The notes under the pieces are model-generated. The model saw only the letters and a program-made list of their open reading frames with translations, was not told the origin of the DNA and made no database searches. 64,000 nucleotides of DNA from Acinetobacter kanungonis. Its GTDB lineage: Bacteria; Pseudomonadota; Gammaproteobacteria; Pseudomonadales; Moraxellaceae. The stretch is from positions 365,665 to 429,664 of the forward strand of contig NZ_JAACKC010000001.1 in the NCBI RefSeq assembly GCF_009939195.1, in the 5' to 3' direction. This document shows, piece after piece, positions 32,587-63,361 of the stretch; within the stretch, counting starts at the first letter, position 1; every line of letters begins with the position of its first letter. The position numbers and the translations under genes are program-made.

Positions 32587-32597
32587 TTTTCATTTTC

Positions 32598-37093: not shown

Positions 37094-37187
37094 GACTCTA
37101 TTTTAATTTGTTAAGTATATTTTTAATATAACAAATTATTTTTAATAAAAAAATATTTAAATGAATATACAAACTATTTTTGTATCA

Positions 37188-37693: not shown

Positions 37694-37708
37694 TTAATAA
37701 GGAAGAGT

Positions 37709-38629: not shown

Positions 38630-38797
38630 ATTATTCAACTTTTCAATAGATTTATATTAAATTCAAACACTTAACCAAAGATAATATCAACAATTATTCT
38701 CCTTAACTATAGAGTCTTGTGTTAAATTCCTTATATTTTCAGGTTCATTTTGATGAAGTTAATTGTGTTCAAAATCCCCCCACTTTTCACTTCTACC

Positions 38798-44960: not shown

Positions 44961-47330
44961 TTACGCTACTCCCTCTATAGCATTTTTTACTTTAACCCAA
45001 TTTACTATCTCATTTTGAACGTTATTGAAAAGGCTGAAGGGATCAATATCCTGATTCAATTCCAATAATTGTTCATTACCATGCGGATCCAGGCCATAAA
45101 ACTCAGCTAAAAATTGACCTTGGTAAAATTTAATTTTTAATGTTCCATTGTTCCAATTTTTGAGTAAAACAGCTGGTTTATCGATACTATTTGCAACGTA
45201 TTCATAATCGAGAGCCGCATTCGCATCATTTATTTTATTATTTATACCTTGTTGCTTTAGCTCTAAATATAGGGCATAAGTTCTTAGCTCGGCATGTGCA
45301 CCATTCATCTGTCTAGAACTCAGTAAATAAATCTCATCATGGCTGATAAAACGGATTTGATATTTTTGACAGTAGCCAATCGCTTCAGGATGCTTGATAA
45401 AATATATTCGCCAGTCATCAACTTGAAATCCGTAGGTTTCAATAATGTCATCTAAACTATCCACATTAAAATCTACGGGAAGCTCATCCAGTAATCGCTG
45501 GAGTATTTGTCGTTTATTAGCACTATCAAAGACTTTACGCCAATTTTCGTTTCTATGTCGTACTGTTCTATATACTTCTCGACAGAAAGTTCTGTTCGCT
45601 CCATCTTTGGCCAGATAATTATCAAAACTCAATAAACTTCGTTGCAAACGGTATTGGTCATCATCTAAAAACTCTTTGGAAAAGAGTTTAAATGCTTTAT
45701 CGGCATAGTTTTTAAATGTTTCTGGACAGACTTTTTGACTATTTTCATGTCTACTAAACTTAATTAAGAAATCAATTTGTCCATAAAAATAGTCATGTTG
45801 CTCGTAAGGCTTAAATAAGGACTTCCATTTTTCATCTTCCAAAATTAATTTTGATTTTTCAATTTCATGTACAAGATGATGGTCATCAAAAGCTATTTCA
45901 AATCTTTTAAATTCTTGCGAATCTTTTTGTAAAGCCGCAAGTTTTTCCAACACTGTCCCTTTACCAATAGAGGCCGCTAAACTATTTAAACCCTGAAGTA
46001 CTTTAATCAAATTACTTTCAGCATTGTAGTAACCCTTCGCATTATTTACGAGTCTTGCGCTGATGTTAAACCAGTCACTAAATTGTTCGAATCGATCAAT
46101 ATGCTGAACGTAAAAGTATAAAATAGCAAAGTGGGCCTGATCTAAATATGAACTTGTTCCAGACTTGAACACTTGCCCGAGTATAGTTTCAATCTCTAAT
46201 CCTTCGTTATGCTGAATTAGCAAATCAAATAATCGTGAAATATTCTTTAGGATTTCTTTTAGACTTCCATCAGAACTTTTTAAGATTCTTTTATATTCTT
46301 CACTTGATACGAATAAGTTCTTTCTTAACCGGCTTAACAATGATTTTTCATCAACTTCAGGTGTAGGATCTGATGATTGTTCAGACTGCTGTTTATTCTT
46401 ATGGTCAATGTCTTCATTTCTGTAAAAATGACATAGCAATACTGATTTAAAAATTTGCATAAACATGAAATCAAAATCAAATACTTCATTCTTTTCCCTT
46501 GAATCCTCAAATTTACATTTCAAATTCCATAAAAAATCAGTCCACTCCCGATCCAATTTAGAAAAAAAATCTTTTCTGACCTGAGCATCAATTTTATCTT
46601 CAGTATAACCTTGTAGCCAAGCTTTAAAGTTTTCAAACTCTGTTAATTGCACCCCACGCGCATTCATTTTGATATAGAGTTCATCTGTTAATGCAAAGTC
46701 ATCCATACGTAAAAAGTAAAATGTCAGTACTTGATGGGTGACCAAGTTGTCCCACATTTGTGCCGCATTATAAAGTTGTAAATTCTGCTCTTTAGCATGG
46801 AATTGCAAGTCTATTTCGTCCAGCATTTCCAATATAGATTGTACAGTCGGGTCTTTTTTCCAAATCGAAAAATACCACTCTTCATTCTCAATCTGTTCCG
46901 ACAGCTTCTTCGCGTGGTCATGATTCCAAATACACTTTAAATTGGGTGCTTGCTCAATCAAACTTTTTATAAAGTCTCTTGAACTTGTACGAGTCTCATA
47001 GCTAAATCTCAGTAGTTTTTCTTGTATTGTTTTATCTAGAATAGCATCAGATTTCCAGCCTAAATACCAATGCAGCAAAAACAAGGTTGTTAATCGCTGC
47101 TGACCGTCCAGAAGTTTTAACTGCTCATCAACAACAGAACCGTAAACGAAGTCCAAATCAAATTTATGACTATTTTGATTTATCTTTTCAAATAAATGCT
47201 GGATAAAAGTTTTTCTGATTTGCTCAATCTTAAGATCATCCTTGCGGCCTTGCGCATAATCTCGCTGAATGATCGGTACGATAATTTTAAATTCTTCTAC
47301 TAGACGCCAGAATGTATATTGACTGCTCAT
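44961..47330 (-). CDS. DUF262 protein without recognisable HNH domain
   Basis: This protein of about 789 residues has an N-terminal DUF262 (ParB/Srx-like) domain: VPIIQRDYAQGR (about 18-29) and LLDGQQRLTTLFLLHWYLG (about 76-94). In GmrSD and related type IV systems this domain binds NTP and drives a nuclease. The rest is helical with no H-x-H or HNH motif recognised; RQMNGAHAELRTYALYLE near 700 may be a C-terminal substrate-recognition part. Its ATG at 47330 lies inside the end of the upstream DUF262-DUF1524 gene (overlap of four bases), so the two should act together. The frame start at 47378 was rejected because it overlaps that gene by more. Confidence 0.8.
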   Translation of the reverse strand: MSSQYTFWRLVEEFKIIVPIIQRDYAQGRKDDLKIEQIRKTFIQHLFEKINQNSHKFDLDFVYGSVVDEQLKLLDGQQRLTTLFLLHWYLGWKSDAILDKTIQEKLLRFSYETRTSSRDFIKSLIEQAPNLKCIWNHDHAKKLSEQIENEEWYFSIWKKDPTVQSILEMLDEIDLQFHAKEQNLQLYNAAQMWDNLVTHQVLTFYFLRMDDFALTDELYIKMNARGVQLTEFENFKAWLQGYTEDKIDAQVRKDFFSKLDREWTDFLWNLKCKFEDSREKNEVFDFDFMFMQIFKSVLLCHFYRNEDIDHKNKQQSEQSSDPTPEVDEKSLLSRLRKNLFVSSEEYKRILKSSDGSLKEILKNISRLFDLLIQHNEGLEIETILGQVFKSGTSSYLDQAHFAILYFYVQHIDRFEQFSDWFNISARLVNNAKGYYNAESNLIKVLQGLNSLAASIGKGTVLEKLAALQKDSQEFKRFEIAFDDHHLVHEIEKSKLILEDEKWKSLFKPYEQHDYFYGQIDFLIKFSRHENSQKVCPETFKNYADKAFKLFSKEFLDDDQYRLQRSLLSFDNYLAKDGANRTFCREVYRTVRHRNENWRKVFDSANKRQILQRLLDELPVDFNVDSLDDIIETYGFQVDDWRIYFIKHPEAIGYCQKYQIRFISHDEIYLLSSRQMNGAHAELRTYALYLELKQQGINNKINDANAALDYEYVANSIDKPAVLLKNWNNGTLKIKFYQGQFLAEFYGLDPHGNEQLLELNQDIDPFSLFNNVQNEIVNWVKVKNAIEGVA

Positions 47331-49246
47331 GCTTTGCCCCCAAAATCTAAACCATATCCTTTGAAACATTCCAACCATTGGGCTTTATAATTGCTGCGGT
47401 CGATCTCATCCCATTTGTACATTTGGCTGACATCATCACTAAAATATTTTGAAAAGACCTGTTGCGTAGCTAAAGGAATAAATTTTCCCTGATGTTCTTT
47501 CTCGAACTTGCCTTTATTTTCGAAATCCACAATACGTTGCCGTTTAGTCAGGAAGATCTGATTTCCGATGGATCGGTTCACCGATGCTGGCAATAGGCAT
47601 AAATTGTCGAGTGTTTGGATTGCTTCTTTAACGTCACCAACAATTTTGGACAGCTCGTCAAGATATTCTTTTCTAAGTGATTCTGTATCGGCTGGCTCTA
47701 CAGCTAAAGCTTGCTGATAAGCAGTCAGTTTGGTATCCAACAATCCTTTATAAGACTCCGGTACAGCATCGAGAATGGCTTTTTGCTCATTCAACCAGAT
47801 TTCTCTTTGTGCATCACTTGGTAGATCCAAGCTTTGTTGTGCATGAATATGCTCAATATCCCATTGACAATTGTTATAGGCGTTAAAAGAAAATCTGGTT
47901 TTATGTTTCTCATTAATATAAATATTAAATAGCATCAGCAAACCAATAATTCTTGGTCTTTGACTAGATGAAAGATAATCCACTTTGGTAAAATCTAACC
48001 GTGTACTATCTTTATTCCCCTTAAATAATCGTTCAAGATAATCTCTCTGAATATGTGATTTTAAGATTTGAACAAATTGATCTCGTTTCGCTTTTTTGGA
48101 CTCCTGCCAGAGTACGTTAATGGTTTTAATTTTCTGCCCAATGATAAAGCCAATCAAATGATATAGTTGATCCTCTTTAAACCACTCCGCTAAACGATGA
48201 AAACCCTGCAGTACTTCTGTCCACTGCTCTTCTATTTGGCAACTCGATGCATTTTTGAGTTGATTCGCAAAATAGAGAAATGTCTTATGATTTAATTGCT
48301 GTTTGTCTTTACTTTCTTCCGCCAGCAAATCAAAAATTAGCTCAATACGGGTATGTTTATTGGTTCCTTTATGCGGGCTTAAAAATGCCCAAAATTCATC
48401 ATCCTGCAGTGTCTGTTCAATTAAGTCCCATTGGCTAGCCATTTCAAATTGTTTTTGTTTGCCAATCCCGTAATGATGATAAGCTTTTATTACTCTCTGT
48501 AGAAAAAGCGCTTTTATTAGTTCTGCATCTGTAAGGGCAATTTTTCCCTGATTGAGTCGAGTAAAGATTTCAATTGAATGCTGTTGGCTGTCCTTGTTGT
48601 GGTTACTGCGTGCCATGTACCAAATGACTTTTGTTTTGTGGAGCAGCTTATCACGCCATATATCCTTTTTTTCTTGTGATTTAGTTGCGAACCAATCATG
48701 AACAGTTTTATAAGCTTGATAGAAATAGTAGTTGTCAATATGACTAAACTTAGGTCCTTGTTCAGTATAGTTGAGTTGAACCAAGTCATTTAAGAATTGA
48801 GAACTCTCTTGTCGAGTTTCATAATGTAAAGTGAAATAGGGTTTATTTAATAAATAACTAAGAATAATGAAAATAGTGGTCATGCGTTGCTGACCATCAA
48901 TTAATTCCCAAAAAGCAGTTTCTTTGCCTTCATGCTGTATAGATTTGCGCTTAACCACCACAGGCTGTAAGCAATAGAACTCATTCTCGTTTTTTGGCTC
49001 AAATTCCTCAATGTCATTCAGTAGGGCTTCGACTTGTTGCGTTTTCCACTTATAACCACGCTGATAACTATCGACAAAAAAATTACCTCCCTCCAGTTTT
49101 GCAATAGCTCTAAGTTCCAGTCTATTTTCTCTTGTCTTTAGATTCTCGATAATACCGTTTAGTGAAGTTTCAGCAAACTCGGTTAAATCCGGATTGTCAT
49201 TGAGTAAATTTTTAATTTGAATAAGTAACTGTTCTGTATTCATCAT
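47327..49246 (-). CDS. DUF262-DUF1524 (GmrSD-like) restriction protein
   Basis: This 639-residue protein has an N-terminal DUF262 domain with VDSYQRGYKWKTQQVEALL (about 58-76) and LIDGQQRMTTIFIILSYLL (about 113-131). The C-terminal DUF1524 HNH-type nuclease includes WDIEHIHAQQSLD (about 458-470) and LDNLCLLPASVNRSIGNQIF (about 545-565). This is the layout of type IV modification-dependent enzymes such as GmrSD/BrxU/SspE. Here it is paired with a second, separate DUF262 protein. First gene of a two-gene leftward unit, divergent from the PglZ cassette. Confidence 0.85.
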   Translation of the reverse strand: MMNTEQLLIQIKNLLNDNPDLTEFAETSLNGIIENLKTRENRLELRAIAKLEGGNFFVDSYQRGYKWKTQQVEALLNDIEEFEPKNENEFYCLQPVVVKRKSIQHEGKETAFWELIDGQQRMTTIFIILSYLLNKPYFTLHYETRQESSQFLNDLVQLNYTEQGPKFSHIDNYYFYQAYKTVHDWFATKSQEKKDIWRDKLLHKTKVIWYMARSNHNKDSQQHSIEIFTRLNQGKIALTDAELIKALFLQRVIKAYHHYGIGKQKQFEMASQWDLIEQTLQDDEFWAFLSPHKGTNKHTRIELIFDLLAEESKDKQQLNHKTFLYFANQLKNASSCQIEEQWTEVLQGFHRLAEWFKEDQLYHLIGFIIGQKIKTINVLWQESKKAKRDQFVQILKSHIQRDYLERLFKGNKDSTRLDFTKVDYLSSSQRPRIIGLLMLFNIYINEKHKTRFSFNAYNNCQWDIEHIHAQQSLDLPSDAQREIWLNEQKAILDAVPESYKGLLDTKLTAYQQALAVEPADTESLRKEYLDELSKIVGDVKEAIQTLDNLCLLPASVNRSIGNQIFLTKRQRIVDFENKGKFEKEHQGKFIPLATQQVFSKYFSDDVSQMYKWDEIDRSNYKAQWLECFKGYGLDFGGKA

Positions 49247-49637
49247 TTGCCCTCCTCGTAGATATTCTATAAAGATTAATTTTTCATAACCTATTGATAG
49301 GACTTATCGTAACCACACGTGCCAAGTATATAAAAAAGTATTAAATGCTCTACAGTCGATTTGATTGAAATTCTATTTTCTATAAACCTTAAGTTGAATA
49401 TTTACATGGAAAACTATACTCGAAGCATTTGAGGCAGCTTCAAGATGAAGTTATCTCATGTCTAGGGTACTGAGAGCAGTCCAAATATCAAGCTTTCGTT
49501 AGATTTTATATAATTTCGTTTAGTAATTTCAGTAATATGGATTGAGTAAAATTAAAAAATTATTCAGACTACTACAAACACTAAACACTTAATCTCATGG
49601 CCACTCTATAGTCTAAGAGATGAAATAGGAAAGCAAA
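49247..49637. promoter_or_regulatory. Divergent promoter region between DUF262 pair and PglZ cassette
   Basis: These 391 bases carry no gene and must hold promoters for both directions. It is AT-rich. No clear operator dyad or regulator gene was recognised nearby. Confidence 0.5.
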
Positions 49638-52382
49638 ATGCTAGGACTTACCCTACGTGATGAATTTCGAGGGAAACGCCTCAAAGGCACAGCCATTGAA
49701 CTCTCTAATGACTCAAATACTGGAGCAACCCAAATTGCTGCCCAGCAATTTTTAGAAATTACTTACCCAACTCATGATCTTTTGAAGGGTATAGAAGCTG
49801 TAGGGCCACATAAAGGTAGACCGGTCGTTGTGATTGGTGAACGTGGTTTAGGTAAGTCTCACTTAATGGCTGCACTCTATCATGCTGTCAATGATCCAAC
49901 ATCAACTGGGTTATGGCTGAAATCTTGGGCCAACACCCTAAACGAATCAAACATCAGTAAGATCACCTTACGAGAAGGCATGTTAGTTATTGGAGAAAGC
50001 CTGCATCGTCAACGCTACAAATTTTTGTGGGACTTGCTTTTCGAACGTCACCCACGTGGTGAGTTTATCAAAGGGAAATGGGAGGGTATGGGAACAGCAA
50101 AAACTGATATCCCTTCCGATAAACTCATCATCGAACTTTTAGAACATACTCCAACGATGTTATTACTGGATGAGTTTCAAACTTGGTATGACGGTCTCAC
50201 CAACAGCAAACAATATCCTTGGAAAAACTGGGCCTTCAATTTCATTCAAATTCTTTCAGAAATTGCAAAAGAAAGACCCGATTTATTAGTTCTGGTTATT
50301 TCGGTCCGTAATGGCAGTAGTGATGCATACCAGCAAGTTCACCGTGTCAATCCGGTAGCTATCGATTTCAAAGCTGGTGGAAATGCAGAACGGATCCAAC
50401 AAGATCGAAGACGAATGCTTCTTCACCGTTTATTCGATAATCGATTACAGATTTCAGGAACCTTAATTGAGTCATTGATTGCTCAGCATGTTTCAGAGTA
50501 TTTTCGTCTTTTGGATGTTCCACCAGCCGAACAAGATCGTAAACAAAAAGAGTTCACAGAATCTTGGCCTTTTGCACCTCACTTATTACGCTTGCTTGAA
50601 GAGCAAGTACTTATCGCTACTGATGCTCAAGAAACTCGAGACATGATTCGTATCTTGGCCAATCTATATAAAAGTCAGGGCGAAGTTGTACCAATACTAA
50701 CCGCCGCTGATTTTCGCCTTGATGATGATGCGTCAGGTATTGGGGCATTACTTGATTCAGTATCCAATGAACACCATCGGACACTTCGAGAAAAAGCCCA
50801 ACACAATATTATTTCGGTGACTGAAACAGTTTATGACCACAAACATATCACGCCACATCTTCAAGAGATAATTGGTGCTTTATGGCTCCGGTCAATTGCA
50901 GTTGGCAATCTCGCAGGAGCCGATCCCGCTACGCTGCAAATTGATATCACAAGAAATAAAACCGTTGATGACAATGCATTTCAAGTTGAACTAGCCACTA
51001 TTGTTGAAAACAGTTTCAATATTCACCAAGATGGCCAACGCATGGTCTTTCGTGAAGAAGAAAACCCTCGTGCAAAACTAATGGCTTGCGCGCGAAACGA
51101 CAAACTGTTCACTGATGGTTCAGATCAGTTCCATCTTACGAAACAAATCCGGTACGTCATAGGTGGAAGTGATGAAGTAGCAAAAAACTTCCGAGTGATT
51201 GCCCTACCCAAGTCTTGGCAAGCTACTCCGTGGGTATCACTTGATGAATCTGAGATCCCAGATCGGTGGGATGAGCGCCTACCTATATTGGTTCTACCAG
51301 AAGAACCTAATCAGATTGATCCAATATTGGGACGCTGGCTCAAGGATCATTTGCAAAAGCGCCGGAATACTGTTCGCTTCCTTATCCCACGCTCGGGCTC
51401 TACAAATGCATTCATGGATAGAGATCTACTCATCCTTGCTCGTGCAGAAATGAAAGCTCAAGAGTGGAGTGGTCAGAACCCAGAATTCAAGAAGTTGCAA
51501 AAGGAATTTGAAGGGATATTAAGAGACAATCTTAAAAAGCGCTTTGACCGTTTTGCTGTATTAGCCAGATACGATCACCAGAACCCTCAACAATCTATAT
51601 TCAGCATAGAACACCTGAGAAAACAGGGTAATGAGATTCCTGAAAATATAGAAGAAACTCTGGCTAATGATTTATTTGTTCCAGAAGATTTTGAAGACTT
51701 AGTACTTGAAGCTGCCAAAGAAAATACTCCTCTTGGTAAACTCCTACGTGAACTTCAGGAACCTCGTCCTGCTGGTCAAGATTGTATCCCTTGGCTAGGT
51801 GAAACCTCTGTGAAGGAGCGTATCTTACGTTTATGCGCACGAGGTAAGATTGCTATAAATTTAAGACACCTTGAACAACTTCAAACTCACCCAGGAGAAG
51901 ATGAAGACACCGCTTGGAAGAGATTGCGACCAAAATTATCTTTTACAGGACGTCAGCTTGATGAAGTGTTCTTAATGGAACCATCAGCAGTCTTGTCAAC
52001 TGGCGGATCCACCTCACCGGCACCCCAAGCTCAAGATGCTGCAACTACTGGAAATATTTTTAATGGCAACCAAAGCCAACCAACAAGCCCTTCTAGTTTC
52101 GGAACAATTGCTTCTGGGGAGAATACAACGCCTAATGGTGGCAATATTTTTGGTGGAGGCACCGCTCCTACAACAAAACCTCGAACACCTTTTTACAACC
52201 CATCGACCTCTCCTCTTAATTTAATTGGCAAGCTTGAAGGTTGGGGAATCGGTCCTGCCACTCCTGTAACAGAAGTTTCACTCAAAATTTCAACGCTCAA
52301 TGGTGCTCAATTAAAAGAGCTTCTTAAAAAGTTACCCGATGGTATGACTTTCGAATTGAGTCTTGAGAAGGAGGACAACTAA
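49638..52382 (+). CDS. DUF499-type P-loop ATPase (first gene of PglZ cassette)
   Basis: This 914-residue ATPase resembles COG1483/DUF499 proteins found in defence islands. Walker A VVIGERGLGKSHLMAALYH is at about 70-88 and Walker B MLLLDEFQTWYDG at about 173-185. VLVISVRNG follows as a sensor-like strand. A long helical middle and mixed C-terminal half extend to about 775. A Ser/Thr/Gly/Asn-rich linker (about 785-860) contains two GNIF elements, and a short globular tail ends the protein. AGGAAAGC lies ahead of the ATG. The stop overlaps the next ATG by one base (TAATG). By analogy with BrxC/PglY it may be the motor or scaffold of the system. Confidence 0.82.
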   Translation: MLGLTLRDEFRGKRLKGTAIELSNDSNTGATQIAAQQFLEITYPTHDLLKGIEAVGPHKGRPVVVIGERGLGKSHLMAALYHAVNDPTSTGLWLKSWANTLNESNISKITLREGMLVIGESLHRQRYKFLWDLLFERHPRGEFIKGKWEGMGTAKTDIPSDKLIIELLEHTPTMLLLDEFQTWYDGLTNSKQYPWKNWAFNFIQILSEIAKERPDLLVLVISVRNGSSDAYQQVHRVNPVAIDFKAGGNAERIQQDRRRMLLHRLFDNRLQISGTLIESLIAQHVSEYFRLLDVPPAEQDRKQKEFTESWPFAPHLLRLLEEQVLIATDAQETRDMIRILANLYKSQGEVVPILTAADFRLDDDASGIGALLDSVSNEHHRTLREKAQHNIISVTETVYDHKHITPHLQEIIGALWLRSIAVGNLAGADPATLQIDITRNKTVDDNAFQVELATIVENSFNIHQDGQRMVFREEENPRAKLMACARNDKLFTDGSDQFHLTKQIRYVIGGSDEVAKNFRVIALPKSWQATPWVSLDESEIPDRWDERLPILVLPEEPNQIDPILGRWLKDHLQKRRNTVRFLIPRSGSTNAFMDRDLLILARAEMKAQEWSGQNPEFKKLQKEFEGILRDNLKKRFDRFAVLARYDHQNPQQSIFSIEHLRKQGNEIPENIEETLANDLFVPEDFEDLVLEAAKENTPLGKLLRELQEPRPAGQDCIPWLGETSVKERILRLCARGKIAINLRHLEQLQTHPGEDEDTAWKRLRPKLSFTGRQLDEVFLMEPSAVLSTGGSTSPAPQAQDAATTGNIFNGNQSQPTSPSSFGTIASGENTTPNGGNIFGGGTAPTTKPRTPFYNPSTSPLNLIGKLEGWGIGPATPVTEVSLKISTLNGAQLKELLKKLPDGMTFELSLEKEDN

Positions 52383-53389
52383 TGACTCTCGATGCTGGTA
52401 TCTTGCATAGCCTGACTAAGGGGACAACTTCTGATGCTTGGCGTTATATCATTGATCGTACTCTAGAAATTTCTTCAAAACCACTCACCGAAAGCAATGC
52501 ATCTAATGAAATCATCAAACGTGACCGTGAGATTGGTAAACTAGATCTTTTCCTTGCCTCAAGTGGGTGGGATTTATGGCAAAATTTTGGTCAGAAAGAT
52601 ATCAGCGGTGTTGAGCGCACATCAGAACGGTTAGCACGATGGTGGACTGAGCCTTTTGCTGCTAAAGCAGTTTTGATTCTCGATGCTTTAAGCTTACGCG
52701 AACTTCCATGGTTATTGCAGGGTGCAAAAGAACGTGGCTTCACCCTGCATAATGTAACAGCCACAGCTTCGGAATTACCTAGTGAAACCAATGAATTTGC
52801 ACGCGCATTAGGTTTAACTAGTCGCAGTCAGTTACAAGCAAATGGTGGTGGTTTGGGGCATTATCTTCAACCAGCTCAAACTGAAACCATCGATTTACCG
52901 TGGAAAGACTGTGAAAGCCTTATAAGTAACACGTCAGGTGCAAAAAACTGGGTGTTTTGGCATCACTGGCCTGATGCCAAGTTACATGATTACTGTGCTG
53001 GGCAAGGGCTTGAACTGTTAACTAAAGATGCGGCTCAACAACTTTCCAGTGATGACTTTTGGTCTTTTGTTGAACGGCTAGCCACAGGTCGACGTCTAGT
53101 GATCACTTCAGACCATGGCTACGCTGCAACAGGATACTTCCCTGATGTTGATGGTGAAGTTGCTGCCTATCTTAAAAAGACATTCTCTAGTGGTCGAAGT
53201 AAAGCTGGAAATGGCGATACCAGTCCATTTATGCCACCAGTTGCAATGCACATCGACAGCCCTCATGGGCCTCATTTGTTGGCGGTCGGCCGAAGAAAAT
53301 GGCGCAGTCAAGGGGGCTACCCATCACTAACGCACGGAGGGCTTTCCCTGTTAGAGGTACTCTCTCCATTTATTGAGCTTACGAAATAA
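52382..53389 (+). CDS. PglZ-domain protein (alkaline phosphatase fold)
   Basis: This 335-residue protein has a PglZ domain. AVLILDALSLRELPWLL (about 94-110) provides the metal-binding Asp and the Ser/Thr position, and RLVITSDHGYAATGYF (about 237-252) the second metal site. HIDSPHGPHLLAVGRR and LTHGGLSLLEVLSPF close the fold. PglZ is the hallmark of BREX/Pgl systems, but those proteins are usually 650-900 residues, so this is a short form. AAGGAGGAC precedes the ATG; the start overlaps the ATPase stop. The methylase gene begins 12 bases later. Confidence 0.85.
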   Translation: MTLDAGILHSLTKGTTSDAWRYIIDRTLEISSKPLTESNASNEIIKRDREIGKLDLFLASSGWDLWQNFGQKDISGVERTSERLARWWTEPFAAKAVLILDALSLRELPWLLQGAKERGFTLHNVTATASELPSETNEFARALGLTSRSQLQANGGGLGHYLQPAQTETIDLPWKDCESLISNTSGAKNWVFWHHWPDAKLHDYCAGQGLELLTKDAAQQLSSDDFWSFVERLATGRRLVITSDHGYAATGYFPDVDGEVAAYLKKTFSSGRSKAGNGDTSPFMPPVAMHIDSPHGPHLLAVGRRKWRSQGGYPSLTHGGLSLLEVLSPFIELTK

Positions 53390-53401
53390 GGAATGCCCTG
53401 A

Positions 53402-56400
53402 ATGGCCACTAAAAAAGAACTACTCCAACAAGAAGTTGCCAAAGCTGTTGGCGCGGGGAAAGCTGTCGCACTTGAAACCGTTGATTTCAACAATCCAAAT
53501 CGCCCTAAGACTTGTCTTGAGGTCGACTTCCCTATCCTGCCAGTTAATCAGGTAGCAATTATAGAAGGCAATGCTGGTAAACCAATCTACCAAATGTCCA
53601 AATACTGGGCTCGGCGTAGATCAAGTGTTTTTCGCTCAATGTTAATTGCAGCAGCAACAAAAGCACCAGATGATAAATCACATGCAGCAAAACTTGTTTG
53701 GGACAACTACTACGCAAATCACCAAAAAAAAGGGGCTTTCAAAGATCTAAAAGTTGCTGACATTTTCATGGGTGGTGGTACCACCTTAGTAGAAGGGTCC
53801 CGTCTAGGCATGCAAATGATCGGCAACGATCTAAATCCCGTGGCGTGGTTCGTGGTCAAGCAGGAACTGGCGAACGTCGATCTGGAGGAAGTGAAAAAGC
53901 TTCTTGCCGATATTGAGGCCGAAGTCAAACCTCAGATCATGCCTTACTATTATTGCGATGGCCCAGAAGGTGAAAAAGGCTCCTGGACACATCTACCAAC
54001 AGGCAAAGTCATGCCTAATGATTTTGACCCTCTAACAATCTCTCATGAAGAGCGAAAGAACTATAAATACGAAGGTCCAGAAGCTATCTATACCTTCTGG
54101 GCAAAGCATGGTCCATGTCAAGTGACCGGTTGTGGGCATCGTACACCAATCATGACTAGCCCAGTTATGGCTGTGAAGACTCTTAGTGTCAAATATTGGG
54201 AGTATAACTGTAACAAATGCAGTGGTAATTTCCATGTTGAAGAGAATGCAGCACGGATGGCTCCTGATGCCCCGTTGTTCGTAGCCCCATCAGAGCCCCC
54301 TTTCTCTATTCTCGACCATAGAAAAGGAGTAGTTTGTCCTCATTGCAACCATACTGAAATGGTTAATCTTGGAAAAGGTAAGAACAAAAAGGTAGAATTG
54401 AGCCTACTTGTACATCCGCAATGGTTAGCAGGCTCACCTAAGCAAAATGAGCATGGACAGCCTTATGGAGGCTCAGCTCAGGATGATGTAAGTTCAACGA
54501 ATCGTTGGAATACTGAGCGCTCATCGAAAATTCGCCTACTAGAAGTACGTGGAACACTACCAGAAGAAGTGACTTGTCCAGAAACAAATATCTCTTTTTC
54601 ACCCAAGAATGGAACAGTTCCAAAGAAATCTCATTATGCATGTGCAGCATGCGGTTCGGTGCAAGATGTATTAACTACAATCAAAGCAACAGGTAAAACT
54701 GGACCAATGGCTGCCTACGCAGTTCAAGGATATGCCCCAAAACGAGCAGGGGTGAGCAAACCATACAACGGCCGATTTTTCGCCCCTTTCAACTCTGCAT
54801 TCTCACGACAATACGACGCTGCTCTTACTGAATGGGAAATACGAAAAGACTCCGACCTCAAAGATTATTGGCCTCGCTCAGAACTACCATATGGTTTCAT
54901 GACTCACCACCTGCAAGGTGGAGTTCCAAACCATGGTTTCACTCACTGGTGGACGATGTTCAACCCTCGCCAATTACTAGCGCATGCTCAACTTCTTAAA
55001 GCGATTGTTAACATCGGGAACTACGACTGGCAAGTACGAGAATATGTACTTGGAGCTTTCCAAAACTTTTTAAGGAATCAAAATTCACTAGCATTTTGGC
55101 ACATGAAACTCGACAAATTGGCACCAGCCATGTCGAACAGCAACTTCCACCCCAAAAATAATGTTGTTGAAGTAGGTGTCTTTCCCCCTATGGGCTATGG
55201 TCCTTGGTCTTCCACATTTGAAGTTTTGTTCAAGGGTGGTGAATGGGCAAAAACACCATGGGAAGTAGTTAGTGCTGAGTATTTAGGTCGTCATGCACCA
55301 AGCATCGCAGGTGAAATTTCTGGGAAAAGTGAGAAAGTTTACCCAGGAGACTCTCTGCTTGGGGCCCAAACATATTGTGGCTCTTCCACCGAACTGACCC
55401 AAATTGAGAACAATAGCCTAGATCTAGTAATCACTGACCCTCCTTTCGGTGGCTTACTTCACTATTCCGAATTAGCGGATTTTTTCTACGTCTGGCTGCG
55501 TCTGGCTCTTAAGGATAAATATCCAGAAATTTTTAGCCCAGAATACACGCCCAAGTCACTTGAAGCAGTCGCCAACCGAGCTCGTGAACCAGAAGATGCT
55601 GATGGTTTTTATCAGAGATTGCTAACTCAATGCTGGCGAGAAGCTAATCGTCTATTGAAACCTAGTGGCATTCTAGCCTTCACATTTCATCACAGTGAGG
55701 ATGAACCTTGGGTAGCTGTATTAGAGTCTTTGTTTGAGGCAGGTTTCTATCTTGAAGCAACTTACCCTATACGCTCTGATGAAACAAAGGGCGAAGGAGA
55801 GTTTGGCTCAAGAACCATCGAATATGACATTATCCACGTTTGTCGAAAGCGCACCGAGGAATCTAAGCCTGTGAGCTGGGGACGAATGCGACGTGAAGTA
55901 ATGGCCGATGTACGTCAGCTACAAGCAATGTTGGAAAATCACGCTAAAGAAGGATTACCTGCAGCTGATATTCAAGTAATCCGACGAGGTAAAGCACTAG
56001 AATATTTTTCACGTCACTATGGTAAAGTATATGTTGATGAAGGCCGAACTATTTCTGTAAAAGAGGCTTTGGTCGGTATCAATCAGCTTATCGATGACGA
56101 TGCTGACAAAGGTAAAGAGCCACCGCCAGTGAACTCAGAACCTATGACTCGACAGTTCCTCCGTACCTTTGGTACTGCCAATGAGCTAAAGCGTGACCAA
56201 TTACAAAAGTTTCTACGCGGTTCAATCACCACTACCGATGATTTTGTACAACGAGGATGGTGCAGCGAGGTGAAAAAGGTCTTCACCCGTACCTCTCCAC
56301 TCGATTTCGCTAGAGACTGGCAGGGTAAACATAAACGTAAGCTCACTTCCGATCTAGACCAAGCTTTAGTTCTGATAGGGGCTTGCGTAGATGGTAGTGG

Positions 56401-56608
56401 TATTAACGCAGCAGACACGTTGAAGAATGAAAACTTCAAGCCTCATGTAGCATTAAAACCACTCTTAGAATGGCTGCAAAAAAATAGTCCAGATCAAATT
56501 ACTCGAAATGCAGCCTCTCGAGCTGTATCAATTTTCAACACATGGCAGGCAAGCCTAGCTCCTAAGCCAATGCAAGGTTCACTGTTTGATGATGAGGAAT
56601 ATGCATAA
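53402..56608 (+). CDS. DUF1156 adenine-specific DNA methyltransferase
   Basis: This 1,068-residue N6-adenine-type methylase belongs to COG1743. The N-terminal DUF1156 region includes FPILPVNQVAIIEG and the YWARRRSSVFRSMLIAA segment. VADIFMGGGTTLVEGSRLGM (about 117-136) fits SAM motif I, and the catalytic motif DLVITDPPFGGLLHYSELADF is at about 675-695. Between them are Cys-rich zinc-binding pieces (CQVTGCGH with CNKC, CPHCNH, CAACG). In BREX/DISARM logic the methylase marks self DNA. Its stop overlaps the next gene by one base. Confidence 0.88.
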   Translation: MATKKELLQQEVAKAVGAGKAVALETVDFNNPNRPKTCLEVDFPILPVNQVAIIEGNAGKPIYQMSKYWARRRSSVFRSMLIAAATKAPDDKSHAAKLVWDNYYANHQKKGAFKDLKVADIFMGGGTTLVEGSRLGMQMIGNDLNPVAWFVVKQELANVDLEEVKKLLADIEAEVKPQIMPYYYCDGPEGEKGSWTHLPTGKVMPNDFDPLTISHEERKNYKYEGPEAIYTFWAKHGPCQVTGCGHRTPIMTSPVMAVKTLSVKYWEYNCNKCSGNFHVEENAARMAPDAPLFVAPSEPPFSILDHRKGVVCPHCNHTEMVNLGKGKNKKVELSLLVHPQWLAGSPKQNEHGQPYGGSAQDDVSSTNRWNTERSSKIRLLEVRGTLPEEVTCPETNISFSPKNGTVPKKSHYACAACGSVQDVLTTIKATGKTGPMAAYAVQGYAPKRAGVSKPYNGRFFAPFNSAFSRQYDAALTEWEIRKDSDLKDYWPRSELPYGFMTHHLQGGVPNHGFTHWWTMFNPRQLLAHAQLLKAIVNIGNYDWQVREYVLGAFQNFLRNQNSLAFWHMKLDKLAPAMSNSNFHPKNNVVEVGVFPPMGYGPWSSTFEVLFKGGEWAKTPWEVVSAEYLGRHAPSIAGEISGKSEKVYPGDSLLGAQTYCGSSTELTQIENNSLDLVITDPPFGGLLHYSELADFFYVWLRLALKDKYPEIFSPEYTPKSLEAVANRAREPEDADGFYQRLLTQCWREANRLLKPSGILAFTFHHSEDEPWVAVLESLFEAGFYLEATYPIRSDETKGEGEFGSRTIEYDIIHVCRKRTEESKPVSWGRMRREVMADVRQLQAMLENHAKEGLPAADIQVIRRGKALEYFSRHYGKVYVDEGRTISVKEALVGINQLIDDDADKGKEPPPVNSEPMTRQFLRTFGTANELKRDQLQKFLRGSITTTDDFVQRGWCSEVKKVFTRTSPLDFARDWQGKHKRKLTSDLDQALVLIGACVDGSGINAADTLKNENFKPHVALKPLLEWLQKNSPDQITRNAASRAVSIFNTWQASLAPKPMQGSLFDDEEYA

Positions 56609-57108
56609 TGAGGCAGATTCTCGATACAGTATGGCAAAGACGCGGCACCAGCTGGCTATGGGATGAAGAAGCACGTAATACCGTGTGCAAAGCTAACGAA
56701 GTGTGGAGCTTACGCCAATTTTTACAAGCCTCTGCTCAATGGCCAGAAGACCTACCTAGCAATGACAACCAAACGCTAGTAGTTGCAGGATTGGAAGGTA
56801 GTCTAGATTTGTTGTCCCCTGAACAAGGTGAGCTTTGGCTTGGCGATACGATAAAACGGGCTATCCTTTCTTTCCAGGACGCCTTTGGCGGAGAGGCTGC
56901 TTTAATCTTCTGGCTACCTCAAGGAGATAGCCGTTTAAAGGTGCAAGTTCCAACTGAGGCTGTATCTTGGTTGTGCGAAGCACCTTTCAGAGGTAGTCAG
57001 CTAGACTTCGGTCGCCTGCTTTGGGGTGAGGCAAACGAATACCCTCAAGAAATTCTTTTGCGTGAAGGCGCAAAAGCAGCTGGGCTATTCCATTTACGCA
57101 TTACTTGA
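56608..57108 (+). CDS. Unknown 166-residue protein of the PglZ cassette
   Basis: No domain was recognised. It is a compact mixed alpha/beta sequence with conserved-looking hydrophobic strands (QTLVVAGLEGSLDLL, EAALIFWLPQG) and many Trp. No signal peptide or membrane helix. Its ATG shares a base with the methylase stop (TAATG), and the helicase starts 10 bases after it, so it is a genuine cassette member and not a stray frame. It may be an adaptor between methylase and helicase. Confidence 0.78.
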   Translation: MRQILDTVWQRRGTSWLWDEEARNTVCKANEVWSLRQFLQASAQWPEDLPSNDNQTLVVAGLEGSLDLLSPEQGELWLGDTIKRAILSFQDAFGGEAALIFWLPQGDSRLKVQVPTEAVSWLCEAPFRGSQLDFGRLLWGEANEYPQEILLREGAKAAGLFHLRIT

Positions 57109-57117
57109 GGTTAGTTC

Positions 57118-59886
57118 GTGATAGAAGAAGTTGCTTTTCAACCCGGTGAAAGAATCACACACCCTGAATTGGGTCAAGGTGTTGTTCTTGAGCCAACACG
57201 AGATGGCTACTTACGTGCATTCTTTAGCGTGGGTGAACGTCGTGTCCCTGTTGATTCACTTCAACGCCAACTATCGCGCTCCGAGCGTATATTGCGCAGT
57301 GTTGAGGGTGGTACTGAACGCTCGCGCAATGCGTGGCTTTCTTACGAGGCCCATGCCCTACCCATAATGGAAAGTGCATCTGCGCTTACCTCCGCTAAGA
57401 TTGATCTTCTACCACACCAAGTAGTTCTAACTCACCGAATTGCAACCGCCTCTCCGCGTCGCTACCTGATAGCCGATGAAGTGGGGCTCGGTAAAACTAT
57501 TGAAACTGCTCTTATATTGCGTGAGTTAGCCAGCCGCGGTGAACTAAATCGTGCGTTAATGGTGGTTCCTGCAGGGCTAGTAAACAACTGGCATCGTGAA
57601 TTAAACGAGGTGTTTAATCTCAATTTTGAAGTATTCGGTTCTGAAGGGGATATTACCGACCGCAAAACAAATGCTTTTGCCAAACACGATAGACTCATTG
57701 CCAGTATCGACACCCTTAAGCGACCTGCACGTATTAAAAAACTACTTGATGCCCCACGATGGGATCTGGTTGTATTTGACGAGGCCCACCACCTCACGGC
57801 AATACGTACTGGTGGAAAGGTTAAAAAGACTGAGAACTACAAACTAGCTGAAGCATTAAAAGACCACTCTCGTGATTTGCTTCTGCTCTCTGCTACACCA
57901 CATCAAGGCAATCATTTTCAATTTTGGATGCTTGCACAACTCTTAAATCCAACTCTTTTTGGTAGTCCAGATGAGATGTTGGAACATAGACACCGTCTCA
58001 ATACGGTTATGTTTCGAAGAACCAAAGCTGATGCATGCCAACCAGATGGCTCCCCGCTATTTGCACGTCGATGGGTACATACCGAATCCTTTTTAATGAA
58101 TCATGAAGAGAAAATCTTCTATGAAAAACTTAGAGAGTATTTAGAAGATGGTTTTGACTTAGCTCGTCGACAAGGAAATCAAGGACGTGCACTCGGTTTC
58201 TTGATGGCAATTTTCCAAAAAATTGCCGCATCCAGCTTTGCTGCTGTTCGTCGAACGCTCAAGCGCCGCTTACTCATGCTAACGCTTCACGAGGCGCATT
58301 TGCGTGATAAAGAGCTCGATATTGATGGACGTGAACGCCTCACCAATGAAGCAAGAGCAATGATCCACGAACAATATGATCTATCCCACGACATTATGGG
58401 GAGCAGTGAAGTTGATCGTATCCTTGCTGATTTGAAATATCGACTAATTAAGAAATTAGATGATGAAGCATTGGAAATGGCTTCCAATCCATACGGCAAC
58501 GAATGCTCAGTGGCTCAAGCAGAAGAAGCCGCCTCAGACGTTGTAGAGTTACACTTACCAGAAGAACGCATGCGCATTGACGATCTGCTGCGTATTTTCC
58601 CACATCAGCGAGAAACCAAAGCACAGAAACTACTTGATGGATTAGGCTTTCTATGGAGACAAAATCCACAAGAGAAAATCGTTATATTTGCCACCTATCT
58701 CGGAACTGTCGATTTAATTGCCCGTGAAATTGAGCAAGCCTATCCTGGTCAGGGTGTAGCTGTACTCCGAGGTGGTGACCACGGAGCAAAGTTAGCTGCT
58801 GAGCGTAAATTCAGATTGAAAGACGGGCCTCGTGTACTTGTTTGTACTGCTGCTGGACGCGAGGGTTTAAACTTACAATTTGCACGAATCTTATTCAACT
58901 TTGATTTACCTTGGAATCCAATGGATGTAGAGCAACGTATTGGACGAATCCATCGGTATGGGCAAAACCACACGGCACAAGTATATAACCTCGTTTTATC
59001 CGATACCATCGAAGGTCGGATTTATCTCATGCTTGACGAAAAGCTGACAGAAATTGCAAGAACCGTAGGGAAAGTTGACGATCAAGGTAATGCTGCTGAA
59101 GACCTACGTGCTCAAATTCTCGGTCAATTATCCGAACGACTCAATTACGACCGACTCTATCAAGAAGCCTTGTCTGATCCAGAACTAAAAAGAACACATG
59201 TTGAATTGGAAGCAGCTTTATCTAACTCTCAAGAAGCTCGACAGGTCGTTTTTGATTTATTCCAAGATCTCGAAGGTTTCAGCCTCGATGACTACAAGCC
59301 ATTCTCGGATGTTTCATCGAGCCTAGACCGCTTGGTACGCTTCTTATCAGCAGCTATTGCTGATCGACAGCAACGCTTAGTCAAAATAAGCGATGACACA
59401 TATGACCTTGAAATGCGTGACGGGACCCGTCGTGCGAGATTCACTCTAAATCGTGACACTGCAACTAGCAATGAGAATATTGAATTGCTTGGAATTGATC
59501 ACCCTTTAATTCAGGAAGAGCTTGGGCGTTGGCGAGGTCTACCTCCTGAAGATATTGGTCTAGCCGTTTCAGGCGATGTAAATTCACCTGTTTTACTTAC
59601 TTTCTGGTTGGTTGAAACATCTACAAGCCATGGCGAACGTCGAATCATTATGCAACCAATTGCTGTAAAGCAAGATGGCAGCCGAATTCCAACTATTGAA
59701 CGCCATGCTGAACAGTACTTACATGCACCTGCAAACAATCCAAAACTATCTTATAAGCAGCGTAAAGAACTCCTTAATCAGATAATTGAACCAACGTTGC
59801 AGCGTGAACTGAGACATAAAGGAGCTGCGACTGGTAATGGTAGTTATATGGCTGAATTAATTGGATATGTTGAGATCACAAACTGA
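57118..59886 (+). CDS. SNF2/RapA-like DEAD-box helicase of the PglZ cassette
   Basis: This 922-residue SF2 ATPase has an N-terminal beta-rich region (GERITHPELGQGVVLEPT) like the Tudor-type part of RapA. Walker A is ADEVGLGKTIETALIL (about 118-133), DEAHHL lies at about 220, and LLLSATPHQGNHFQFW is motif III. In the second lobe are TAAGREGLNLQFA and DVEQRIGRIHRYGQNHTAQVYN. It resembles DrmD/SNF2 helicases of DISARM class 1. The start is GTG at 57118, with GAGG seven bases upstream. Last gene of the rightward operon. Confidence 0.87.
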   Translation: MIEEVAFQPGERITHPELGQGVVLEPTRDGYLRAFFSVGERRVPVDSLQRQLSRSERILRSVEGGTERSRNAWLSYEAHALPIMESASALTSAKIDLLPHQVVLTHRIATASPRRYLIADEVGLGKTIETALILRELASRGELNRALMVVPAGLVNNWHRELNEVFNLNFEVFGSEGDITDRKTNAFAKHDRLIASIDTLKRPARIKKLLDAPRWDLVVFDEAHHLTAIRTGGKVKKTENYKLAEALKDHSRDLLLLSATPHQGNHFQFWMLAQLLNPTLFGSPDEMLEHRHRLNTVMFRRTKADACQPDGSPLFARRWVHTESFLMNHEEKIFYEKLREYLEDGFDLARRQGNQGRALGFLMAIFQKIAASSFAAVRRTLKRRLLMLTLHEAHLRDKELDIDGRERLTNEARAMIHEQYDLSHDIMGSSEVDRILADLKYRLIKKLDDEALEMASNPYGNECSVAQAEEAASDVVELHLPEERMRIDDLLRIFPHQRETKAQKLLDGLGFLWRQNPQEKIVIFATYLGTVDLIAREIEQAYPGQGVAVLRGGDHGAKLAAERKFRLKDGPRVLVCTAAGREGLNLQFARILFNFDLPWNPMDVEQRIGRIHRYGQNHTAQVYNLVLSDTIEGRIYLMLDEKLTEIARTVGKVDDQGNAAEDLRAQILGQLSERLNYDRLYQEALSDPELKRTHVELEAALSNSQEARQVVFDLFQDLEGFSLDDYKPFSDVSSSLDRLVRFLSAAIADRQQRLVKISDDTYDLEMRDGTRRARFTLNRDTATSNENIELLGIDHPLIQEELGRWRGLPPEDIGLAVSGDVNSPVLLTFWLVETSTSHGERRIIMQPIAVKQDGSRIPTIERHAEQYLHAPANNPKLSYKQRKELLNQIIEPTLQRELRHKGAATGNGSYMAELIGYVEITN

Positions 59887-60328: not shown

Positions 60329-61345
60329 TTAACCACTCCACAGTATATATCCATTTTCTCGCGCTTGTTGGTAAGCCCAATCAGCGACACGATGTGATCG
60401 CTGTAAATCCGTTAAAAAGCCTAGCTGTGATATTTCTGTAGCAATGATGTGGTCATGTAAGTGATTACGCTCAACCCATAAAGCTCTAAAATTTTCAGAG
60501 GCTAAATAATTACTCTTTTTCGCATTACACTTGTCATCAGCAAGTACAAAATTATGTCCCGTATCTGCGGGATATAAAGACCATGGAATAAAATGATCCA
60601 CTGCATGTTTAGAATGTTTCAGGTTTTTAGCACAGTAAAAGCATTTACCATCTTGCAAGTCTAATAAAATATGTGCCACTTGCCCTAACTGACTCCGAAT
60701 CGGAGCAAACATAAACTCATTTAAATCAGGTAATCCGTCTAACACAACTAAATTTTGCCGATTCGCACGAATATAGTCGATCCATCGCTTTTGGCAGAGC
60801 TCTTCAATAATTTCACTGAATTGTCTTAAACAGTACATAGCTTGGGGCAACAAGTTCAGTTGTTGCTTTGAGTCTTGCACGCGATAGAGAAATTCATGCG
60901 ATTGTCCATTAACATTTTGCAGGTAAACCACTGGCATTTGCTTAACTGTTGCCGCAATGGTCTTCTTTAGTTTTTCCCAATACAAAATATCTCTTCTAAC
61001 TGCAGCGATGGTCTTAAATTGTTGTTGTGCATTTCGAATGATATTAACAATTGAGGCTTGCTTACCCGTACTTTGTTGAAGAATAAAAGGATCATGCTGA
61101 TTAAACTGAAATGGCAAAGACTGCTTCCAATACAGATCAATAAACTTCTCTGCAATATCTTGGTAGCCCAGGCTTATGCTATCCCCGCAGTCTTGACCTT
61201 GTTCAATCACAAGACGAGTCAAACTCATCAATAAGGCAAATTTATAGGTCGACGTGAATGTGCCAGACTGCAGAATTTGTTGAATATGTTTTAGAAATCG
61301 TAATTGCTCTTGAGCTGTTGGAATTGTCTGATGTGCCGAGATCAT
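60329..61345 (-). CDS. HNH endonuclease domain protein
   Basis: This 338-residue protein has a C-terminal HNH nuclease. CFYCAKNLKHSKHAVDHFIPWSLYPADTGHNFVLADDKCNAKKSN-type zinc and catalytic positions are at about 230-275: CxxC, the DHFIPW His, and the N and CNxxK parts. The N-terminal 200 residues are helical with a YWKQSLPFQF-type segment and are of unknown fold. Its start is directly adjacent to the stop of the upstream methyltransferase gene, so the two form a coupled pair. It could be a restriction-type nuclease. Confidence 0.82.
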   Translation of the reverse strand: MISAHQTIPTAQEQLRFLKHIQQILQSGTFTSTYKFALLMSLTRLVIEQGQDCGDSISLGYQDIAEKFIDLYWKQSLPFQFNQHDPFILQQSTGKQASIVNIIRNAQQQFKTIAAVRRDILYWEKLKKTIAATVKQMPVVYLQNVNGQSHEFLYRVQDSKQQLNLLPQAMYCLRQFSEIIEELCQKRWIDYIRANRQNLVVLDGLPDLNEFMFAPIRSQLGQVAHILLDLQDGKCFYCAKNLKHSKHAVDHFIPWSLYPADTGHNFVLADDKCNAKKSNYLASENFRALWVERNHLHDHIIATEISQLGFLTDLQRSHRVADWAYQQARENGYILWSG

Positions 61346-61936
61346 TTAACCCACCTGCTTCTTTAAAAGTATATTGAGCCATTCTTCTGTTCGATCTGGG
61401 CGTTTATCTAAAGTAATCCATTGTTGTAAAAGCAGTACACCATCTAATGCTGATAATAAATCCTGTGCTTGCTGTTCATTTAAATCAGTAAATTGCCGTC
61501 CATCTTTCTCTCTATCATTTTCCCCATATTTAAATGACATATAGAGCACTCCATTTAGCTTTAATGCATTTATCATTCTTCCAACGACTTCATTTAATTG
61601 ATGCCGCTCACAATGCAATAAAGATGCACATGCCCAAATACCGTTAAACTTAGACTGATCGGAAAAATCATAGAAGCTCTCTAATCGCACTTGCTGGCCC
61701 GTCTGGTGGCTTGCAAGTGCGACTAACTCTTTCGAATAATCGAGTGCTTCTACTCGATACCCTTTTCGCTTGAATGCTAAAGTATCTCGACCTGAGCCGC
61801 AGCCCAGATCGAGTATGAGTGCATCCTGAGGTAAATATTGTATAAAGGCTTGATATAAGCTTTCCATATCGACATTCAATGTCGCATTAAAAAATTCAGT
61901 AGCATTTTGATTGTAATAATTAAGCGTTTGATTCAT
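61346..61936 (-). CDS. Class I SAM-dependent methyltransferase (paired with HNH gene)
   Basis: This 196-residue Rossmann methyltransferase has motif I LILDLGCGSGRDTLAF (about 40-55) and the motif II acid in VEALDYSKEL. FNGIWACASLLHCE is motif IV-like. It lacks a DPPY/NPPY motif, so it is more like TehB/UbiE-type small-molecule methylases than DNA methylases. It is joined to the HNH nuclease gene without a gap. Target unknown. Confidence 0.85.
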   Translation of the reverse strand: MNQTLNYYNQNATEFFNATLNVDMESLYQAFIQYLPQDALILDLGCGSGRDTLAFKRKGYRVEALDYSKELVALASHQTGQQVRLESFYDFSDQSKFNGIWACASLLHCERHQLNEVVGRMINALKLNGVLYMSFKYGENDREKDGRQFTDLNEQQAQDLLSALDGVLLLQQWITLDKRPDRTEEWLNILLKKQVG

Positions 61937-61990
61937 TTGCTGCTTTCATTCTACTTTGAATGCAGTCTAGTCTACTAAAAAACAAAAAAA

Positions 61991-62013
61991 TAAGGGAACC
62001 GAAGTTCCCTATT
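61991..62013 (-). terminator. Terminator of the alpA-like gene
   Basis: AGGGAAC, CGAA and GTTCCCT form a hairpin (UUCG loop on the minus strand) followed by T7 in minus-strand direction. Confidence 0.85.
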
Positions 62014-62243
62014 TATTCTCGACTCGCCAACTTGTCTTCAATCCACTGATTGATTTCCCAAGCTGACCAGCCAATTCGATTTTGTGTAATTTTAACTTTC
62101 TTTGGAAATGTAGGATCATAATACGGTGAATTTTCATCCATCATTTCATAAATCGTTGAACGACAGACCCCAACAAACAGTACAACTTGCTTAATATTCA
62201 ATAATTGATTCATTTGAAATGTCTGACCTGTAAACGCATTCAT
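62013..62243 (-). CDS. AlpA-family excisionase/regulator
   Basis: This 76-residue MerR-like winged-helix protein of the AlpA group controls integrase or excision genes in prophages and islands. The pattern LLNIKQVVLFVGVCRSTIYEMM, then FPKKVKITQNRIGWSAWEINQWIEDK is diagnostic. AGGAGAAA lies about 10 bases ahead of the ATG at 62243; an internal ATG (MNQLLNIKQ) is an alternative start. No integrase gene is in the window. Confidence 0.88.
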   Translation of the reverse strand: MNAFTGQTFQMNQLLNIKQVVLFVGVCRSTIYEMMDENSPYYDPTFPKKVKITQNRIGWSAWEINQWIEDKLASRE

Positions 62244-62329
62244 GATGTTTTTCTCCTAATCATTGATGCGAGCGGCAATTCGCTCAGATCATAGGCACAC
62301 TCCTTATTTTTTTATGTCAGCATGGCTGT

Positions 62330-63256: not shown

Positions 63257-63299
63257 GTTGATTTCCTCTGTTCATTCTTGATTTAAAATTGAATCGACA

Positions 63300-63326
63300 T
63301 AAAAAAGCCCATGCCGTGATGGGCAT
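63300..63326 (-). terminator. Hairpin between YqaJ-like and RDF-like genes
   Basis: GCCCATGCC and GGGCATGAGC-type complementary segments pair, with T6 on the minus-strand side. Confidence 0.7.
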
Positions 63327-63361
63327 GAGCACTTGTGTATGTAGGAACATTTTTGCTTAGG

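Follow-up and report, generated by a model that had tools for sequence, protein, structure and literature searches.

BREX-type defence is widely studied, with its cutting step and backup layers still unclear. Among the described systems, Type-3 BR is defined by a DUF499 ATPase, an N6-methylase and a nuclease-free helicase; an active stand-alone PglZ is near-universal in its 569 taxa, and 466 of the 569 have a separate gene for an inactive STAND (iSTAND) protein that lacks Walker motifs and is treated as the counterpart of BrxB/BrxF (PMC12839542). The Type-3 BR methylase is further marked by a Zn-finger insert in its target-recognition domain and by an N-terminal DUF1156 helical domain. Type-1 and Type-2 BR have a classical nuclease in the place of the Type-3 PglZ, and some BREX and BR operons are described as containing nuclease genes, among them ones of the Schlafen and OLD-ABC types (PMC12839542). 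The PglZ of Type I BREX acts as a nuclease that needs metal, and a T538A substitution in it cuts defence by about 3 logs with methylation unaffected (PMC12205998). The BREX methylase is the specificity factor (PMC11341690). Here we describe a five-gene operon in a 64,000-nucleotide stretch of Acinetobacter kanungonis DNA (the window; assembly GCF_009939195.1, contig NZ_JAACKC010000001.1, positions 365,665 to 429,664 of the forward strand). The operon matches the Type-3 BR layout, its fourth gene by place only, and is a further member of this known kind; the cargo pattern reported below is visible in the family, not in the window alone. The initial annotation had suggested that the gene combination may be an under-described or recently named type. 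The latter holds, but the former does not, because PMC12839542 defines the same set as Type-3 BR.

Gene content and relation to BREX and Type-3 BR

The five predicted open reading frames (ORFs) are intact, free of internal stops and on the forward strand (Table 1). Their junctions are one-base overlaps at 52382 and 56608 and spacers of 12 and 9 bases; the overlaps had been described correctly, whereas the gaps had been given as 10-12 bases. To place the operon among its relatives, the methylase was used to scan species genomes and the best 80 of 185 relatives were kept, so that the sample leans to the lineage of the window. All five genes were found in a single order and on a single strand in 76 of the 80 loci, some being partial at contig ends. 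This arrangement is therefore far from chance, in agreement with the earlier proposal of one operon. Six genes in six of the 80 loci have an internal stop or frameshift. In three of the other four loci (L048, L067 and L069) the contig stops within the operon, and L065 has no PglZ match.

Gene 1 matches Pfam DUF499 (PF04465; 34 bits against a cut-off of 23) and not DUF6079, and carries Walker A and Walker B motifs. The PglZ label of gene 2 was confirmed by structure, using a predicted model. The window protein had no Pfam match to PglZ and a marginal NCBIfam one (E 0.0075), and a Pfam PglZ search of its own genome found 0 of 1 although the protein is present. Residues D101, T136, D198, H202, D244, H245 and H318 are invariant in all 30 aligned members. 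In the predicted model the nearest fold is PorX, followed by nucleotide pyrophosphatases. The protein corresponds to the PglZ catalytic unit only, as the approximately 370 N-terminal residues of BREX PglZ and the part beyond residue ~749 are absent. This compact five-gene form thus offers a simple model for the question of PglZ alone as effector.

Gene 3 matches Pfam N6_N4_Mtase and has a GGG motif at residues 124-126 and a DPPF motif at 679. Its insert contains eight conserved cysteines, seven of which are kept in 63/63 loci and one in 57/63, and which may bind zinc. Of the three family labels given earlier, DUF499 stood by Pfam and PglZ by structure, while the Pfam DUF1156 model was silent on gene 3. 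The NCBIfam DUF1156 anti-phage model scored 88.6 bits, far under its cut-off of 1000, and relatives of gene 3 are named DUF1156 proteins in RefSeq.

Gene 4 has no Walker A motif. Its strand order, with an insert after E98-102, agrees with the iSTAND description, with no significant fold match. A profile search of the PDB gave two chains (Scone-E and Scone-R, E 0.68 and 0.87), and in Foldseek BrxB (9zll_G) ranked 20 at an unusable E of 1.2. Gene 4 sits where Type-3 BR has its iSTAND gene, an identity predicted from position, size and strand order. As noted earlier, no BrxA or BrxL was seen among the scanned proteins; the absence of BrxB may not hold functionally, since gene 4 occupies the place of the BrxB/BrxF counterpart (PMC12839542).

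Gene 5 had no nuclease domain in Pfam. It encodes 922 aa, against 972-1283 aa in 11 more distant loci (those with a helicase ORF of at least 900 aa). The best PADLOC helicase model was BrxHI (337.7 bits), and the DrmA and DrmD models match gene 5 as a helicase. The window gave no tRNA match, and none of the Rfam families reached its gathering score.

The BREX-like reading of DUF499, PglZ, methylase and SNF2 helicase was thus sound. The operon shares with Type I BREX the PglZ fold, a methylase, an ATPase and a predicted small BrxB-like protein, but differs in lacking visible BrxA and BrxL, in a PglZ trimmed at both ends and in a methylase that is of DUF1156 type by the annotation of its relatives. 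With Type-3 BREX it shares a PglXI-like methylase, an SNF2 helicase and PglZ, but DUF499 replaces the DUF6079 BrxC, PglZ stands alone and no BrxA was seen among the scanned proteins. It was therefore not assigned to canonical BREX. The likeness to Type-3 BR covers the DUF499 ATPase, a stand-alone PglZ with its active-site residues, an N6-methylase with a cysteine insert, a small separate gene at the iSTAND place and an SNF2 helicase without nuclease.

Table 1 Features of the five-gene operon and its upstream region in the window.
Feature	Position	Strand	Remarks
Upstream region of 391 bases, no regulator gene found	49247..49637	.	many relatives: HTH_17, WYL or XRE-type gene
Gene 1, DUF499 AAA+ ATPase	49638..52382	+	914 aa; Walker A residue 67, Walker B ~175
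Gene 2, stand-alone PglZ (alkaline-phosphatase/NPP superfamily), predicted nuclease	52382..53389	+	335 aa
12-base pglZ/methylase spacer, empty cargo slot in the window copy	53390..53401	+	
Gene 3, N6-adenine methylase, DUF1156 type by annotation of relatives	53402..56608	+	1068 aa
Variable middle of gene 3, residues ~200-680, putative target-recognition region	53999..55441	+	
Gene 4, predicted iSTAND (BrxB/BrxF-like)	56608..57108	+	166 aa; by position, size and strand order only
Gene 5, SNF2/RapA-like helicase, GTG start	57118..59886	+	922 aa; no nuclease domain found

Variable methylase segment and cargo within related operons

Mean identity along the methylase (79 rows, 3081 pairs) was above 0.9 in the catalytic parts and fell to a minimum of 0.44 between residues 601 and 640; it was also reduced around residue 921 (0.69) and at the C-terminus (0.51). 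Among pairs more than 0.90 identical in genes 1 and 2, segment 550-650 was below 0.60 in 51 of 90, and the catalytic segment in none of the 90. The rank correlation with the core was 0.30 for segment 550-650 and 0.76 for the catalytic segment (71 rows). The window segment is close to those of L016 and L061 (0.96 each) and L001 (0.93), less so to that of L023 (0.74), and only 0.44-0.55 identical to the other six of the nine nearest relatives. Such a pattern would be expected if systems that are alike in other respects recognised different DNA targets. None of 3081 pairs showed a clean long-range swap of methylase residues 430-660 (above 0.92 there, below 0.85 in the rest), and of 1832 pairs with less than 0.82 identity in genes 1 and 2, one was above 0.90 in segment 550-650 (the window with L061).

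Some of the related operons contain additional genes. Inserts longer than 300 bases lie between genes 2 and 3 in 24/76 loci, between genes 3 and 4 in 6/79, between genes 4 and 5 in 9/79 and between genes 1 and 2 in 0/76 (slot 2/3 against slot 1/2, Fisher's exact test with loci treated as independent: p = 1.4e-8); 32 of the 80 loci have at least one internal insert. Cargo was typed by clustering and by profile scans of cluster representatives. Slot 2/3 holds IetAS in eight loci, SIR2-HerA in seven, a lone SIR2 piece in one (L054) and others in eight, including a PIN protein, a PemK protein, an aspartyl-protease-like protein and unknowns. In slot 4/5 we found a HEC-01 OLD-type ATPase in seven loci (a DUF4276 partner clustered in four) and a Schlafen/AlbA-type gene in two; slot 3/4 has Schlafen-type genes in three and others in three. 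Judging by their families, SIR2 would be an NADase and IetS a protease, and such modules probably have a suicide role. The cargo of the relatives consists of genes of known defence families, likely of the cell-suicide type. Because it sits at fixed internal positions, the operon looks like a chassis with exchangeable parts. In L065, a helix-turn-helix-like ORF and another ORF precede the methylase (1-1225), with no recognisable pglZ; this 1.2 kb stretch at a contig end may be a further filled slot. A second sample added L153, with IetAS in the slot, and L155, with about 1 kb there; two further loci of that sample proved identical in contig to L039 and L059.

When mapped on a quick tree of genes 1 and 2 (71 rows: the window and 70 loci), the state of slot 2/3 required 16 changes against a shuffled mean of 22.2 (as low in 0/200 shuffles), and empty versus filled loci were clustered (0/500). 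IetAS and SIR2-type cargo each required seven changes for eight rows, as low in 115/500 and 100/500 shuffles, respectively. Since shuffles often need as few changes, each of the two looks scattered. The window groups with nine loci (SH-aLRT 99), all of which have cargo (five SIR2-type, with L054 a piece, and four IetAS); such close relatives are natural pairs with and without cargo. The 12-base spacer of the window occurs in 29 of 48 empty slots, the window included, and being like other empty spacers it is not a visible scar.

The gene ends next to the slot were compared within this group of ten. Between IetAS and SIR2 loci, pglZ identity was 0.85-0.87 up to base 975 and 0.62 over the last 33 bases, where pairs of IetAS loci reached 0.92 and pairs of SIR2 loci 0.82. 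In the whole set, identity at the pglZ end dropped from 0.80 to 0.63 between IetAS and empty loci, while SIR2 versus empty loci (0.73) equalled empty versus empty loci (0.73). The drop is confined to comparisons with IetAS, and therefore the pglZ end travels with IetAS; SIR2-HerA showed no such pattern, SIR2-type and empty loci being alike in this stretch. IetS is 92% identical between L003 and L004 although gene 1 is only 84% identical, and IetS of L001 is 84% identical to those of L003, L023 and L039 despite gene 1 identities of 96-98%.

We tentatively propose, at somewhat less than even odds, that the Type-3 BR operon is a frozen defence chassis into which two kinds of exchangeable cassette are fitted: the methylase recognition segment, which sets the target, and suicide-type cargo (SIR2-HerA, IetAS, HEC-01 or Schlafen-like) behind pglZ or before the helicase. 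The cassettes would be swapped by recombination through conserved gene ends, the last ~11 pglZ codons travelling with IetAS, and the cargo might serve as a guard, set off by a block of the core. On this view the window copy is a chassis with an empty slot, its cassette lost or never gained. Judging by the cargo slot, methylation-guided defence and probably abortive modules may be put together in a single transcription unit.

Embedding in the operon as such is already known, since PMC12839542 describes nucleases within BREX and BR operons; the words SIR2, subtilase and IetAS are absent from its main text. In the open-licence literature we found no paper pairing DUF499 with SIR2 or embedding SIR2-HerA and IetAS in BREX, and no nesting phrases with BREX; SIR2-HerA and BREX, and IetAS and PglZ (in a Streptococcus suis survey), do co-occur as terms.

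Proposed mode of action and alternatives

The operon likely protects its cell through methylation of an adenine motif in the host genome, with PglZ predicted to nick or cut incoming DNA that is unmarked. The methylase would read the motif through its variable middle and, on host DNA, would methylate while bound to the ATPase, to PglZ and to the 166-aa product of gene 4, which may have a sensing role. On unmethylated phage DNA, the ATPase/helicase complex could remodel or travel along the DNA and thereby license the cut by PglZ, whose nuclease activity and part in defence are predicted from the Type I BREX homologue. In relatives, second-line modules inside the operon may act as backup, of which the window copy has none.

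Alternatively, PglZ may be a phosphodiesterase acting on cyclic or linear oligonucleotides or nucleotides (depletion of a signal or of NTPs), with the SNF2 helicase complex itself blocking phage replication. We consider this unlikely. In its favour, the PglZ domain of PorX, the nearest fold, degrades cyclic nucleotides, BREX PglZ cleaves such substrates too, and Type I BREX with a dead PglZ is partly active (PMC12205998). The nucleotide pyrophosphatases as next structural neighbours point the same way. However, BREX PglZ also cuts double-stranded DNA (PMC12205998), and the classical nuclease held by Type-1 and Type-2 BR at this place (PMC12839542) argues for the cutting of DNA.

Two further readings would give the operon another origin. 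Combining an SNF2 helicase with a methylase, it had been likened to class 1 DISARM, and it shares the core of helicase, methylase and ATPase with Hma (Type-1 BR), so that it might be a helicase-nuclease relative of restriction-modification systems. Model scores lend this some support (PADLOC HmaA 314.8, HmaB 125.8 and DrmD 248.4 bits; NCBIfam DrmD 287.9 bits), but the last is under the 610-bit cut-off, HmaC reached just 17.6 bits, BrxHI topped the PADLOC helicase models and the helicase had no nuclease match (the PADLOC results for genes 3 and 5 cover the best 25 of 32 and the best 25 of 55 families). DISARM is defined by DrmA, DrmB and DrmC. None of these genes was found beside the operon, and PADLOC scans of genes 1, 2 and 4 and of 12 neighbours gave no DISARM parts; an assignment to DISARM was therefore dropped. 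Hma has three genes without PglZ or gene 4 (PMC8565338), and the Type-1 BR helicase is usually nuclease-bearing (PMC12839542), whereas the window has five genes including both PglZ and gene 4. These two were found in 0 of 20 sampled loci with a ~30%-identical methylase, several of which are cut by contig ends. We regard membership in Hma or DISARM as very improbable. Even less probable is an origin by decay from a larger BREX locus: no BrxA, BrxL or DUF6079 BrxC was seen among the scanned proteins and the window copy had no regulator match, but the window ORFs are full length and the recurrence of the five-gene set extends over several phyla. The Type-3 BR reading was thus retained.

Distribution, mobility and genomic neighbourhood

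According to record titles, the 80-locus sample includes Pseudomonadota, Acidobacteriota, deltaproteobacteria/Myxococcota, Planctomycetia, Akkermansiaceae and Synergistaceae; records of the last three are metagenome-assembled genomes (MAGs), in which contamination is possible. Within the genus of the window, PglZ was found in 1 of 175 genomes, the window's own. In its class, 38 of 369 genomes had a methylase match, three of them in this lineage (66-100% identity, window included), and in its phylum 6 of 398 had a PglZ match, one being that of the window and one weak. In E. coli, 33 of 5426 genomes matched gene 5 at 60-80% identity, and one inspected locus had all five genes and no cargo. In this locus (L133, 4039-14474), an HTH_17 gene precedes the five and is called MAD1 of the methylation-associated defence system (MADS) in RefSeq, with no other MADS gene named there; a kinship with MADS was considered and not retained. 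One Hydrogenophaga MAG has two copies of the system (L001 and L016), one with IetAS and one with SIR2-HerA.

The five-gene system is on the move: PglZ has matches in 41 plasmid records, with 80-90% identity in 34, and conjugation is predicted for 32 of the 41. A megablast of the DNA against plasmids gave no match. Among 72,556 plasmids, the SIR2 subfamily had 34 matches at 80-90% and all others below 60%; five among the listed matches at 81% lie beside pglZ in plasmids of the PglZ list. The SIR2-HerA pair was within the slot in two inspected plasmids, and the slot was empty in three others with PglZ at 49-74%. IetS gave only matches below 60% (105 records). The phage collection had no match to PglZ, and six loci on viral contigs had all five genes, with cargo in 0/6. 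A predicted conjugative KPC-2 plasmid of Klebsiella michiganensis (L132, 9875-22405) carries the system with SIR2-HerA in the slot and a gene 1 lacking its first 213 residues. In a Citrobacter plasmid (L140, 1614-17017), the system with SIR2-HerA cargo adjoins Tn7-like TnsD and TnsE genes, through which it might spread. In three haloarchaeal plasmids, a ~25%-identical PglZ lies between DUF499 and a methylase, with no helicase annotated nearby; in L134, L135 and L136 the methylase that follows the DUF499 and PglZ-like genes is itself followed by a 132-aa gene and then a DNA adenine methylase. In an unrooted DUF499 tree, proteins from PglZ-less loci stood opposite the PglZ-bearing rows (100/99, with long-branch warnings), which does not by itself prove sisterhood.

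Of the 70 loci whose upstream sequence was long enough (window included), 33 had an HTH_17-type match next to gene 1, 8 a WYL-type and 4 an XRE-type one. None of the 11 query proteins matched there in 25 of the 70, the window among them. Directly upstream in the window (44961-49246), and running in the other direction, are two genes with GmrSD_N (DUF262) matches, the nearer also with a borderline GmrSD_C match, which are likely a Type IV-like restriction or related pair. They were not counted as part of the system, being on the opposite strand and having weak matches (~30%) only in L004 and L013 among the loci searched. Next to them, 39539-44269 encodes an SF1-type helicase of 1576 aa that ends in an MTES_1575 nuclease domain and has PDC-S37 as its nearest PADLOC model. 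A ShosA/PsyrA-like DprA protein, a DpdF/PsyrT-like helicase and a ShosT-like phosphoribosyltransferase cluster at 31981-38638, possibly a ShosTA/PsyrTA-like module. With this candidate nearby, the operon likely lies within a defence island. The right end of the window had no match in the phage collection. It encodes an HNH protein and a SAM methyltransferase followed by Gp3-like recombination-directionality-factor and YqaJ-like recombinase genes (60329-63997), and may mark where a prophage or another integrated element borders on the island.
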